Below are positions 51,883-58,933 of a stretch of DNA of 64,000 nt, piece by piece. A program made the translations under genes and the position numbers. The stretch comes from Peristeroidobacter soli. Lineage in GTDB: Bacteria; Pseudomonadota; Gammaproteobacteria; Steroidobacterales; Steroidobacteraceae. The DNA is taken from the NCBI RefSeq assembly GCF_004138485.1, contig NZ_RYEV01000004.1:928803-992802 (forward strand), given 5' to 3'. Numbering within the stretch: position 1 is the first letter of the stretch; the number at the start of each line of letters is the position of its first letter. The notes below the pieces were generated by a model. That model did not search any database, had not been told where the DNA came from, and worked only from the letters and a program-made list of their open reading frames with translations.

Positions 51883-53292
51883 TCACTGCTTGCCGAGCGG
51901 ACTGCGACGGTAGCCGTAGAGGAAATAAACTACGGCGCCGATCGCAGTCCAGATCGCGAACCGGCCCTGAGCCAGCTTCGGCAGACTCGAGAACAGATAC
52001 AGGCACCCGGCCACGGCCAACGGCCCGACCAGCCACAGCGTCGGACAGCGAAACGGCCGATGACGATCGGGCTGCGCACGACGCAGCACCATCACCGAGA
52101 TGCTCACGACGACGAACGCGAACAACGTGCCGGTGTTGGACAGCTCAGCAATTTCGTCGACGGAGAACAGCCCCGACACCACTGCGACGAACACGCCGGT
52201 CACAATCGTAATGATGTGCGGCGTGCGAAAACGAGGATGCACCGTGCTCAGTCTCTCCGGCAGCAAGCCGTCGCGGGACATCACGAACAGGATGCGCGTC
52301 TGCGCGAAGACCATCATCAGGACCACAGTGGGCAATGCGACGATGGCCGCCAGCGCCACGAGATTGCCCACGGTTGGGAAGCCTAATGAGCGCAGGATCG
52401 ACGCCAGCGGCTCAGTGTTGCCAGCCAGCTCCAGGTAAGACGTGGTGCCCACCGCGCCCGCGGCCACCAGCACATACACCGTCGTGCAGATCACCAACGA
52501 GCCGATCAATCCAATCGGCACGTTTCGATTCGGATCGCGCGTCTCCTCCGCGGCCGTCGACACGGCATCGAAGCCAATGTAGGCAAAGAAGATCAGCGCC
52601 GCTGCGGCCATCACGCCCTTGGCGACACCGCCCTCCTCGGTCGTGCCGAATCCATAAGGCATGAAGGGCTGGAAGTTGGCCCAGTCGATCCGGGGCACGG
52701 CGATGAAGATGAACGCGCCGAGCGCCAGCATCTTCACGAACACGAGCGCGGTCGTGAAGTAGACGCTCTCACGCGTGCCGACGATGAGCAGTCCGGTCAC
52801 TGTCAGCGTGGCAGTCACGGCGATGAGATTCACGCCGCCGCCTTCGACGGCAAACACTCCGGCCTTCAGAGCCAGCGGTATCTCGATGCCCATGCTTTGG
52901 AGCAATCCGGTCATGTAGCCGGACCAGCCCACCGCCACGGCCGCGCCCGCGACCGCATACTCCAATATGAGATTCCAGCCGACCAGCCAGGCGACCAACT
53001 CTCCGATCACTACATAGGAATAGGTATAAGCGCTGCCCGCGACCGGCACCATCGCCGCCAGCTCGGCATAAGCCAGCGCGGCGAACGCGCACACAGTCGC
53101 CGCAATCACGAAGGACAACAACAGACCCGGCCCGGCTCGCTCCGCGCCCACCGCGGTGAGAACGAAGATGCCCGTGCCGATGACCGCACCGACGCCGAGC
53201 AACATCAGTTGTATGGGACCGAGCGTCCGCTCCAGACCTTTGCGCTCAGCGCTCTCGATACAGGCTTCAACAGGCTTGATTCGCCGATTCAT
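51883..53292 (-). CDS. APC-family amino acid permease
   Basis: The 469-residue inner-membrane protein has about 12 hydrophobic segments and APC/CAT-type motifs: LGVGAVIGTGIFVLTAVGA, MVPVAGSAYTYSYV, FFAYIGFDAVSTAAEETRDPNRNVP and VMSRDGLLPERLSTVHPRFRTPH. It imports amino acids by cation coupling; the exact substrate is not predictable. It follows the adenosyltransferase gene by 70 bases on the same strand with no terminator in between. It is thus probably the last gene of the mutase operon, which suggests that the pathway substrate is an amino acid. It is convergent with the CocE gene, three bases apart. Confidence 0.9.
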   Translation of the reverse strand: MNRRIKPVEACIESAERKGLERTLGPIQLMLLGVGAVIGTGIFVLTAVGAERAGPGLLLSFVIAATVCAFAALAYAELAAMVPVAGSAYTYSYVVIGELVAWLVGWNLILEYAVAGAAVAVGWSGYMTGLLQSMGIEIPLALKAGVFAVEGGGVNLIAVTATLTVTGLLIVGTRESVYFTTALVFVKMLALGAFIFIAVPRIDWANFQPFMPYGFGTTEEGGVAKGVMAAAALIFFAYIGFDAVSTAAEETRDPNRNVPIGLIGSLVICTTVYVLVAAGAVGTTSYLELAGNTEPLASILRSLGFPTVGNLVALAAIVALPTVVLMMVFAQTRILFVMSRDGLLPERLSTVHPRFRTPHIITIVTGVFVAVVSGLFSVDEIAELSNTGTLFAFVVVSISVMVLRRAQPDRHRPFRCPTLWLVGPLAVAGCLYLFSSLPKLAQGRFAIWTAIGAVVYFLYGYRRSPLGKQ

Positions 53293-53362
53293 AGGATCCC
53301 CGAGTCATAGTGGTCCCCCGGCTACAGATGCCGCTGCTGAAATCGGTGGCTGGGGCGGGTTG

Positions 53363-53941
53363 TTATCGTTTGCGGTCGTGCCGCCACAGCACTTCCGAGC
53401 CATGCTCGTGACGAGCCAGCACGCGCGCGATCACGAACAGCAGGTCCGAAAGTCGATTCAGATAGCGCGCCGCTTCGGAATTGACGTTTTCCGGTGGCGA
53501 CGGCGCTGATGTCTCCAGCGTGATCAACGTCCACACGCGGCGCTCCGCTCGACGCGCAATCGTGCGTGCCACGTGACACGCCGCCGCCATCGGCCCACCG
53601 CCGGGCAATATGAAATCCTTCAGCGGCGGCAATGGCTGGTTGAACGCATCCAGCTCCTGCTCGAGTCGTTCAACTTGCGGCGCGGTGATGGCGCGACTGC
53701 CTGGAATGCACAGCTCGCCGCCCAGATCGAACAGTTCGTGCTGAACCTCGGTGAGACAGGAACTCACTGCCGCCGGCAGCGCCGGATAGGCGAGCAACAC
53801 ACCGATCGAGCTGTTGAGCTCATCGACGGCGCCATACGCTTCGACGCGCTCGTGATCCTTCGCCACGCGCTGCCCGTCACCGAGGCCGGTCGTGCCATCG
53901 TCGCCGGTACGCGTATAGATCTTGCTCAGACGATTTCCCAT
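53363..53941 (-). CDS. Cob(I)alamin adenosyltransferase, PduO/MMAB type
   Basis: The 192-residue protein starts at ATG 53941; the frame runs on upstream to 53992 but overlaps meaB. Family signatures are YTRTGDDGTTGLGDGQRV (ATP binding), RVEAYGAVDELNSSIGVLLA, FILPGGGPMAAACHVART and RRAERRVWTL. It makes adenosylcobalamin, the cofactor of the mutase encoded upstream in the same operon, and can load it directly onto such mutases. Ten bases separate it from meaB. Confidence 0.92.
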   Translation of the reverse strand: MGNRLSKIYTRTGDDGTTGLGDGQRVAKDHERVEAYGAVDELNSSIGVLLAYPALPAAVSSCLTEVQHELFDLGGELCIPGSRAITAPQVERLEQELDAFNQPLPPLKDFILPGGGPMAAACHVARTIARRAERRVWTLITLETSAPSPPENVNSEAARYLNRLSDLLFVIARVLARHEHGSEVLWRHDRKR

Positions 53942-57215: not shown

Positions 57216-57238
57216 GATGTTTCCGATCTCTGTCTTGA

Positions 57239-58933
57239 TTAGTAAACGAGCGGTGCGCGGTATTCGCCGAACACTCCACGCAGCACATCGCAGATCTCGC
57301 CGACGGTGGCCTGCGCCTTGATCGCGCGCACGACGGCCGGCATCGTGTTGATATTGCCGCGCGCGGCAGCTTCGATTTCTTTCAGTGCACTGGCGTGTTC
57401 GGCCTGAACACGCGAACGACGGATCCCTTGAGTGCGGCTGATCTGACGCTCGCCCAGGCCCGGATCGAGCGTGAACGCTTCGAACGGCAACTCGCCGGCG
57501 GGCTCGACATGAATATTCATGCCGACGATGTACTCAGTGTGCCTCTCCAGCGCGCGCTGATAATCGGCCGAGGCATCGGCGATCTGCCGTTGAATGAAGC
57601 CGTCTTCGATCGACTGCACCATGCCGCCGCGATCCAGCACCTGCTTGATCAGGGCCTCGGCCTCTTCTTCGAGCCGCGTCGTCAACGACTCCACGTAGTA
57701 GGAGCCGCCGAGCGGATCGACCACATCGGCAACGCGGTTCTCCAGCATCAGGATCTGCTGGGTGCGCACGGCGATCTTGATCGCCCCTTCGGAGGGAATC
57801 TGAAACGCCTCGTCCTTGGAGTTGGTGTGCAGCGACTGCGTGCCGCCGAGAATCGCGGCGAGCGCCTGCACCGCTGTACGAGCGATATTGTTGTCCGGCT
57901 GCTGAGCGGTGAGACTGACACCGGCCGTCTGACTGTGAGCGCGCATCGTCCACGAGCGCGGATCTTTCGCACCGACCCAGTCGCGCATCATGCGGCCCCA
58001 CAGGCGACGCGCCGCGCGCAGCTTGCAGATCTCTTCGAAGAAGTCGTTGTGGATGTCCCAGAAGAACGAGACGCGGGGTGCCACGAAGTCGGCCGACAAG
58101 CCGCGCTTGACGGCTTCGGTCACGTAGCAGTGCGCGCCGGCGAGCGTGAACGCCAACTCCTGCACGGCATTCGAGCCAGCTTCGCGGATGTGATAACCCG
58201 ACACGCTGATCGGGTTGTAACGCGGCATTGTCTTCGCCGCGTATTCCATCGTATCCACCACCAGACGCACAGCAGGCGCGGGCGGATAGATGTATTCGTT
58301 CTGTGCCGTGTACTCTTTCAGGATGTCGTTCTGACAGGTGCCGGTGATCTTGTTGTCCGGCACGTTCTGCTCTTTGCAAACCACTTCATACATGCCGATC
58401 AGCACGAAGGCGGACGCGTTGATCGTGTACGACGTCGACACCTCATCCAGCGGGATGTCCTTCATCAGCAAACGAACGTCGTCCACCGTATCCACCGCCA
58501 CACCGATCTTGCCGATTTCCGGAACGGCGATGCGATGGTCGGAGTCGTAACCGAGCAGCGTCGGCAGATCGAAATCGGTCGACAGGCCGGTCTCGCCATG
58601 AGCGAGCAGATATTTGTAGCGGCCGTTGGTGTCCTCGGCGGTACCGAAGCCGGCCACCTGACGAATGGTCCAGGGCCGGGCGCGATACATGGTCGGGTGC
58701 ACGCCGCGCGTGTAGGGATACTCACCGGGAAAACCGATCTGACTCGGCACGTCGATGTGCTCGACATCTTCGGCGGAGTACAGCTCCTTGATGGGCAGGC
58801 CGGACAGCGTGGTGAATTGCTCCTGACGCGTCGGCATCTTTTTCAGGCTGCCCGCAAGCGTGCTGTTCTTCCAGGTTTCCTGATCGGGCGACGCCGGCGC
58901 CGCCGCTGCTTTGCTTGCCTTATCCACTCGCAC
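57239..58933 (-). CDS. B12-dependent acyl-CoA mutase large subunit (HcmA-like, substrate not methylmalonyl-CoA)
   Basis: The 564-residue TIM-barrel subunit has conserved TRGVHPTMY, RPWTIRQ, FDLPTLLGYDSDH, GTCQNDILKEY, SISVSGYHxxEAG-type and QSLHTNSKDEAF segments. Aligning by eye to Propionibacterium methylmalonyl-CoA mutase with a constant offset of four (anchored at H244/H248), Tyr89 becomes Val93, Ala116 becomes Asp120 and Arg207 becomes Gln211. Arg207 and Tyr89 bind the methylmalonyl carboxylate, so that substrate is unlikely. 2-Hydroxyisobutyryl-CoA mutase has Ile, Asp and Gln at these places. The Asp can bind a hydroxyl or an amino group. It is the first gene of an operon with B12 loading and repair genes. 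Reference residues are from memory. Confidence 0.88.
   Translation of the reverse strand: MRVDKASKAAAAPASPDQETWKNSTLAGSLKKMPTRQEQFTTLSGLPIKELYSAEDVEHIDVPSQIGFPGEYPYTRGVHPTMYRARPWTIRQVAGFGTAEDTNGRYKYLLAHGETGLSTDFDLPTLLGYDSDHRIAVPEIGKIGVAVDTVDDVRLLMKDIPLDEVSTSYTINASAFVLIGMYEVVCKEQNVPDNKITGTCQNDILKEYTAQNEYIYPPAPAVRLVVDTMEYAAKTMPRYNPISVSGYHIREAGSNAVQELAFTLAGAHCYVTEAVKRGLSADFVAPRVSFFWDIHNDFFEEICKLRAARRLWGRMMRDWVGAKDPRSWTMRAHSQTAGVSLTAQQPDNNIARTAVQALAAILGGTQSLHTNSKDEAFQIPSEGAIKIAVRTQQILMLENRVADVVDPLGGSYYVESLTTRLEEEAEALIKQVLDRGGMVQSIEDGFIQRQIADASADYQRALERHTEYIVGMNIHVEPAGELPFEAFTLDPGLGERQISRTQGIRRSRVQAEHASALKEIEAAARGNINTMPAVVRAIKAQATVGEICDVLRGVFGEYRAPLVY

Follow-up and report, generated by a model that had tools for sequence, protein, structure and literature searches.

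A putative B12-dependent operon for 2-aminoisobutyrate-type amino acids in Peristeroidobacter soli

2-Aminoisobutyrate (Aib) has no alpha-hydrogen and cannot be attacked by the common amino-acid enzymes; 2,2-dialkylglycine decarboxylase (DGD), a pyridoxal-phosphate (PLP) enzyme, converts it to acetone and CO2. A second route is the O2-dependent hydroxylation of Aib to alpha-methyl-D-serine by AibH1H2 of Rhodococcus wratislaviensis (PMC7782822). We analysed a stretch of 64,000 nucleotides from Peristeroidobacter soli (the window), in which seven co-directional genes on the minus strand, from 58933 to 51883, are arranged in the order mutL, mutS, ligase, Kal-like gene, MeaB, adenosyltransferase and permease. 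The question raised by this locus is which substrate would pass through both a B12-dependent acyl-CoA mutase and a CoA ammonia lyase. We consider it probable that the operon degrades an Aib-type substrate (the Aib/isovaline class) by B12-dependent rearrangement followed by ammonia removal. Gene identities, pocket residues and recurrent gene linkage were observed, and from these we infer every substrate and reaction given below. No account of such a route was found among the matches listed from the open-access literature searched, subscription papers and preprints being outside its scope. The genes of the operon are as follows.

57239..58933, minus strand: mutL, B12 acyl-CoA mutase large subunit; Val93/Asp120 correspond to positions 90/117 of 2-hydroxyisobutyryl-CoA mutase (HCM)
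56817..57215, minus strand: mutS, cobalamin-binding small subunit; DGHDRG motif intact
55297..56820, minus strand: AMP-forming acyl-CoA ligase; the ATG start overlaps the stop of mutS, the open reading frame opening at 56835
54899..55282, minus strand: Kal-like hotdog CoA ammonia lyase, from NCBIfam KAL and Protein Data Bank (PDB) matches
53952..54902, minus strand: MeaB GTPase chaperone; P-loop intact
53363..53941, minus strand: PduO-type cobalamin adenosyltransferase
51883..53292, minus strand: amino-acid permease, BcaP-like (537 bits, under the BcaP cut-off of 690)

The operon and the proposed route

The first-pass annotation of this DNA had named a split mutase, a ligase, a Kal-like lyase, MeaB, an adenosyltransferase and a permease on one strand, and the profile and structure matches agree with it. 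MutL matches PF01642 at 672.7 bits, and its nearest solved structure is the HCM large subunit (4r3u, 583.7 bits; human methylmalonyl-CoA mutase, 458). The ligase core motif TSGSTGRSK is intact. Several ATGA overlaps had been claimed, and they were found at two junctions, mutS/ligase and kal/meaB; the gap from the adenosyltransferase gene to the permease gene is 70 bp. The search for the same gene set elsewhere, suggested at that stage, recovered the five-gene core (mutL, mutS, ligase, Kal and MeaB) in a Gemmatimonadetes metagenome-assembled genome (MAG; mutase identity 83%) and in Pseudaminobacter (79%), the mutase identity being 54% or lower in the remaining 78 among the best 80 of 139 loci that were retained for comparison.

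In the proposed route the permease would import the amino acid, the ligase would form the alpha-aminoacyl-CoA, and the adenosylcobalamin (AdoCbl) mutase would transfer CO-SCoA from the quaternary carbon onto a methyl carbon, producing 3-aminobutyryl-CoA from Aib-CoA or 3-aminopentanoyl-CoA from isovalyl-CoA. A thioester-moving B12 mutase of this kind would convert 2-X-isobutyryl-CoA to 3-X-butyryl-CoA, and with X = NH2 the product would be 3-aminobutyryl-CoA, the known substrate of Kal. Asp120 would be oriented towards the amino group, like Asp117 towards the hydroxyl in HCM, and we expect that an aspartate at this position accommodates ammonium at least as well as hydroxyl. The Kal-type lyase would then free ammonia, the resulting crotonyl-CoA or 2-pentenoyl-CoA would enter beta-oxidation, and MeaB and the adenosyltransferase would maintain the cofactor. 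A thiolase at 28774, earlier counted as part of the pathway, was dropped: it lies 23 kb away, its location in the same window was its sole support, and no linkage was seen.

The hotdog protein, which might have been a thioesterase, appears from its sequence to be Kal-like, as had been predicted. Over 128 aa it shares 54% identity with a Fusobacterium protein whose KAL score (196.6 bits) clears the cut-off, and its top PDB match is the beta-alanyl-CoA:ammonia lyase 4mtu (E 4e-16) versus E 0.05 for YbgC thioesterases, on which ground a thioesterase identity was excluded at the sequence level. Twenty-four columns are invariant in an alignment of seven proteins that include the Fusobacterium and Acetoanaerobium Kal, with D13, H15, Y16 and E36 among them. 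Kal is known from lysine fermentation, and the Fusobacterium gene adjoins the KCE, KDD and lysine 2,3-aminomutase genes, whereas the window gene is placed with a mutase and a ligase. Remoter Kal-like stretches (33-45% identity) occur in Streptomyces and on a Rhizobium gallicum plasmid (L109), the annotation of the genes being alanine racemase or holo-ACP synthase; on L109 the neighbours are an adenylate-forming enzyme and a phosphopantetheine-binding protein.

A ligase and a Kal-type lyase could also break down a beta-amino acid such as 3-aminobutyrate, with the mutase serving a branched beta-aminoacyl-CoA or another substrate. The identity of the known Kal substrate is in keeping with this, and so is the beta-valine route of Pseudomonas SBV1, in which a ligase and a CoA ammonia lyase alone suffice (PMC4619459). 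We regard beta-amino acid catabolism as improbable here, since it leaves the conserved mutase, MeaB, the adenosyltransferase and the DGD linkage described below unexplained. The beta-valine route (BvaA, BvaB1/B2) resembles the proposed one in that an amino acid with a quaternary amine-bearing carbon is activated with CoA and then loses ammonia in a CoA-dependent step, but it has no mutase, and its lyase belongs to the enoyl-CoA hydratase (ECH) family, unlike the Kal-like protein of the window. BvaA converted no alpha-amino acids, 2-aminoisobutyrate being among the compounds listed as tested (PMC4619459).

Pocket residues and two mutase lineages

Residues 90 and 117 of HCM, which we take to line the substrate pocket, are Ile/Asp in the HCM of PM1, Py2 and Agrobacterium deltaense and Val93/Asp120 in the window mutase. 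Over 91 aligned rows, duplicates included, the pair is Phe/Ala in 78, Val/Asp in 7 (5 different proteins), Ile/Asp in 4 (2 different) and Tyr/Ala in 2; Ile/Asp is also present in one haloarchaeal mutase that adjoins a ligase and a thiamine diphosphate (ThDP) enzyme. In a sample of 398 genomes of the phylum, 43 had mutase matches at E 1e-180, 45 in total, and the pairs could be read in 27 of 30 loci (Tyr/Ala 21, Ile/Asp 3, Val/Asp 3), the other three having no motif. These three and the 14 unread matches without a locus all score 626 bits or lower, and the four Val/Asp mutases of the window's own genome (G000, with two) and of genomes G051 and G055 score at least 1080 bits. Among the mutases whose residues were read, Val90/Asp117 is confined to two lineages linked to Kal or DGD.

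These residues bear on the simplest alternative, in which the operon encodes an ordinary isobutyryl-, pivalyl- or methylmalonyl-CoA mutase beside an unrelated hotdog thioesterase. Membership in the same Pfam family is what recommends it; isobutyryl- and methylmalonyl-CoA mutases have Phe/Ala or Tyr/Ala where the window has Val/Asp, by which we ruled out such an identity, and the hotdog protein is Kal-like. We give this alternative almost no weight. RcmAB of Kyrpidia, an (R)-specific 2-hydroxyisobutyryl-CoA mutase, reportedly has Val at position 117, whereas the window has Asp; RcmA is set apart here by this reported residue, not by a sequence comparison.

Lineage A consists of the window mutase and those of loci L005 and L006, 81-84% identical to each other and 46-49% identical to HCM. 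Lineage B consists of a second mutase of the window's genome and those of G051, G055, G458 and rhizobial plasmids; it is sister to HCM with strong support, being 56-59% identical to HCM and about 47% to lineage A. A single clade of A and B was rejected by the approximately unbiased (AU) test (p 0.005), a value that is indicative since the group was picked after the identities were known.

The lineage B mutase of P. soli belongs to a second cluster 16-23 kb further on along the same contig (C3), composed of kal2, mutS2, MeaB2, mutL2, a 3-hydroxyacyl-CoA dehydrogenase, ligase2 and a 2-hydroxyacyl-CoA lyase, the last located on C3 as follows.

L092:10957-12669, divergent: 2-hydroxyacyl-CoA lyase (453 bits to 7pt1; NCBIfam 658 versus cut-off 600)

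Kal2 and ligase2 are 72% and 67% identical to the window copies; in one genome, one type of ligase-Kal pair is joined to two mutase lineages, both Val/Asp. Mutase and Kal sets were found additionally in G051. Kal matches at E 1e-3 were obtained in 6 of the 398 phylum genomes, strong ones being seen only in the window's genome and G051 and the other four being weak and partial (31-41% identity). Because none of 59 further relatives, 13 of them of the same genus, has a Kal match, the operon looks to have been acquired by the genome of the window.

Linkage to dialkylglycine decarboxylase and the weighing of alternatives

DGD accompanies the operon in relatives, and it is for this reason that Aib or isovaline is proposed as the substrate class. 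On the Gemmatimonadetes contig L005, DGD lies 4.5 kb behind MeaB of a lineage A operon (751 bits to 1d7r; next family 222). The lineage B operon has the order LysR / DGD-mutS-meaB-mutL-ECH-ligase in Shinella and Sinorhizobium meliloti LMB1, and that of Sinorhizobium K101 is alike, with a broken DGD that appears as two tblastn pieces in different frames, no coding sequence (CDS) being annotated (L112:9190-10484). Among plasmid records, a lineage B mutase at 80-90% identity was present in 20, and every one of them has a same-strand DGD gene 1476-1585 bp upstream. Operons of the LysR/DGD type are located on genome contigs of G051 and G458, and in G055, which was recovered through the DGD search, a DGD gene precedes the lineage B mutase gene by 1.5 kb. 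DGD is present in 3 of 3 other Kal-bearing genomes found, beside the mutase in G457 and G051 and on another contig than the Kal cluster in G458. The three HCM plasmid records are not among the 53 DGD records, a search that covered plasmids and not chromosomes.

As background, DGD occurs at E 1e-120 in 6 of 299 phylum genomes, two being lineage B carriers and the other four lacking a Val/Asp mutase. Fisher tests, in which unread mutase matches are taken as not Val/Asp, gave p 3.8e-5 for Kal and p 1.0e-3 for DGD against the Val/Asp mutase, and 0.005 and 3.4e-4, respectively, when the genome of the window, in which the operon was discovered, is left out. The DGD route and the proposed one would share a substrate class, and their genes are linked in related operons, but the former proceeds by PLP-dependent decarboxylation. 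The AibH1H2 route and the proposed one are alike in their presumed substrate alone, the former being O2-dependent.

Isovaline fits as well as Aib. There are hints that lineage B leans to isovaline: the residue at position 90 is the smaller Val, and on two Shinella plasmids (WSC3-e and HZN7) propionyl-CoA-carboxylase-type genes, a methylmalonyl-CoA mutase and an epimerase adjoin the cluster (L113:1-5628, L177:1981-8436), which points to isovaline because isovaline would end in propionyl-CoA. The mutase stretch of HZN7 (L177) carries no annotated CDS. In the rhizobial operons a protein of the ECH family occupies the place expected for Kal; it may be the lyase there, since enzymes of that family deaminate beta-valinyl-CoA (PMC4619459), or a plain crotonase. 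Branched-chain-type binding proteins adjoin the rhizobial-type operons and fit the Aib reading because both Bra and Aap of Rhizobium leguminosarum carry AIB (PMC2978685). A stand-alone LysR-DGD pair was observed on pAt of Agrobacterium fabrum C58 (L176), near two citrate/methylcitrate synthase genes and with no mutase in the 19 kb shown.

Several observations weigh against an Aib-type substrate. The Kal-like protein scores 132.8 bits against NCBIfam KAL (NF052388), under the equivalog cut-off of 160, as does kal2 with 135.7 bits. DGD was not found in the genome of the window, where the best match has 37% identity, and three rhizobial plasmids, searched over their full length, yielded no Kal. 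Most of the 20 plasmids belong to Sinorhizobium medicae, so they are not 20 independent events, and the Fisher statistics depend on two or three positive genomes (two without that of the window). Three positions (HCM 90, 124 and 300) are exclusive to lineages A and B, which is unexceptional versus the 0-4 in other non-sister pairs (4 for HCM with haloarchaeal mutases; 12 in the sisters B and HCM), and the count was discarded as proof of convergence. Finally, the second cluster includes a 2-hydroxyacyl-CoA lyase, as does the HCM cluster of PM1 (ThDP protein, 46% identical).

The last point favours the likeliest of the alternatives, a pathway for 2-hydroxyisobutyrate or 2-hydroxy-2-methylbutyrate with an HCM-variant mutase, in which the Kal-like protein dehydrates or otherwise processes the 3-hydroxyacyl-CoA. 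HCM is the nearest characterised relative, Asp117 is retained as Asp120, the HCM pathway (HcmAB, HCL, MeaH of Aquincola tertiaricarbonis and Methylibium petroleiphilum PM1) likewise has a ligase, a split mutase, MeaB and an adenosyltransferase, and the lyase of the second cluster exceeds its curated cut-off. Against these, both lineages have Val in place of Ile90, the window ligase has no blastp match to the HCL of PM1 at E 1e-3, and, unlike the HCM systems, the operon has a Kal-like lyase and its relatives have DGD, a linkage that a hydroxy-acid pathway leaves without a role. No GntR was seen adjoining the operon, and the LysR at the edge of the gene region described below is of the DGD-operon type, matching the LysR of G051 at 228 bits (next 116 and 49; 45 matches in the genome). 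Eight genomes or plasmid records carrying operons of these kinds were searched at E 1e-60 for the 2-hydroxyacyl-CoA lyase itself (three of the eight being plasmids only), and P. soli was the one in which it was found. On balance we consider a hydroxy-acid pathway unlikely. The substrate of the lyase might be a 2-hydroxyacyl-CoA or even a 2-aminoacyl-CoA. A scheme of acetone recycling, from DGD acetone through a reversed 2-hydroxyacyl-CoA lyase to the mutase, was rejected, the one record with the lyase among those eight being the genome without DGD. Degradation of Aib or a related branched amino acid, as first put forward, is the better supported interpretation at the sequence level, given the DGD linkage, Val90/Asp117 in two lineages and the further mutase and Kal sets.

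Genomic surroundings and significance

The operon is flanked by the following features.

59041..59067, no strand: perfect inverted repeat of 11 bp in the intergenic stretch upstream of mutL
59075..61039, minus strand: secreted-type S15 hydrolase, upstream neighbour, nearest to alpha-amino acid ester hydrolases (799 bits)
61053..64000, minus strand: TonB-dependent receptor, upstream neighbour, its start 37 bases past the window end (L092:2840)
49963..51879, plus strand: second S15 (CocE/NonD) hydrolase, convergent neighbour
48756..49619, plus strand: LysR regulator, highest-scoring in the genome against the LysR of DGD operons
47969..48637, minus strand: BluB, 5,6-dimethylbenzimidazole synthase (B12 lower ligand), neighbour of LysR

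The inverted repeat, within the 141 bp between the S15 hydrolase gene and mutL, is perhaps a transcription boundary. No sigma-70-like promoter was found in 58800-59200 and no Rfam family at gathering score within 44000-64000. The proximity of the BluB gene was counted in favour of an Aib-type substrate. Further along the contig, beyond the operon, are M20, M19, S8, S9 and M1-type proteins, ABC systems and more TonB receptors. Three proteins of the contig have counterparts on L005: an S15 hydrolase (80% identity over 173 aa), an ABC ATPase (81%) and an M1-type protein (63%). Large fusions of an ABC-2-type membrane protein with an M1-peptidase-like part, each adjoining an ABC ATPase and 38-63% identical to each other, were observed at L092:3047-6658, L093:9827-13450 and L005:9788-13414.

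Fungal peptaibols are described as containing Aib and isovaline. It is possible, and we advance it as a tentative idea, that an acquired island begins at about 48 kb of the window and reaches C3:1028000 or beyond (35 kb past the window end); in it TonB receptors would take up Aib/isovaline-rich fungal peptaibiotics, hydrolases of the S8, S9, S15, M1, M19 and M20 types would cut them, and the two B12-dependent operons would break down the dialkyl amino acids in the form of CoA thioesters, one acting on Aib and the other on isovaline or the other stereoisomer. The S15 neighbour had been taken as an X-Pro peptidase that would prove peptaibol cleavage, an argument weakened by its closeness to the ester hydrolases and likewise by the acylase of L005, which is nearest to D-succinylase (718 bits).

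In principle both the mutase step and the ammonia-lyase step can be reversed, and the operon might work in the opposite direction, supplying a peptide product with Aib or a beta-amino acid. We hold this to be highly improbable, as the AMP-forming ligase, the permease, the TonB receptors, the hydrolases and the DGD of relatives look catabolic, no search having been aimed at peptide synthetases.

Elsewhere in the window, at 33118-39932, a class III aminotransferase, a ThDP enzyme, an AbgT transporter and an M81 (MlrC-type) metallopeptidase were noted; MlrC is known from microcystin breakdown, and this may be a second locus for unusual peptides or amino acids. Two very long plus-strand open frames are located at 190-15405 (5071 codons) and 15537-22223 (2228 codons).

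If degradation of an Aib-type substrate by the operon is confirmed, it would constitute a new degradation route for Aib or isovaline, the third for Aib, in which all carbons are kept and B12 is needed in place of oxygen. AdoCbl acyl-CoA mutases would be extended from acyl and hydroxyacyl to aminoacyl substrates, a class new to the family, and the mutase family would be joined to the Kal family in one pathway. A Val90/Asp117 mutase accompanied by DGD or Kal would then serve as a genetic marker of users of dialkyl amino acids. The related operon is carried on plasmids of culturable Sinorhizobium medicae WSM419 and Shinella, and the route can therefore be tested there.

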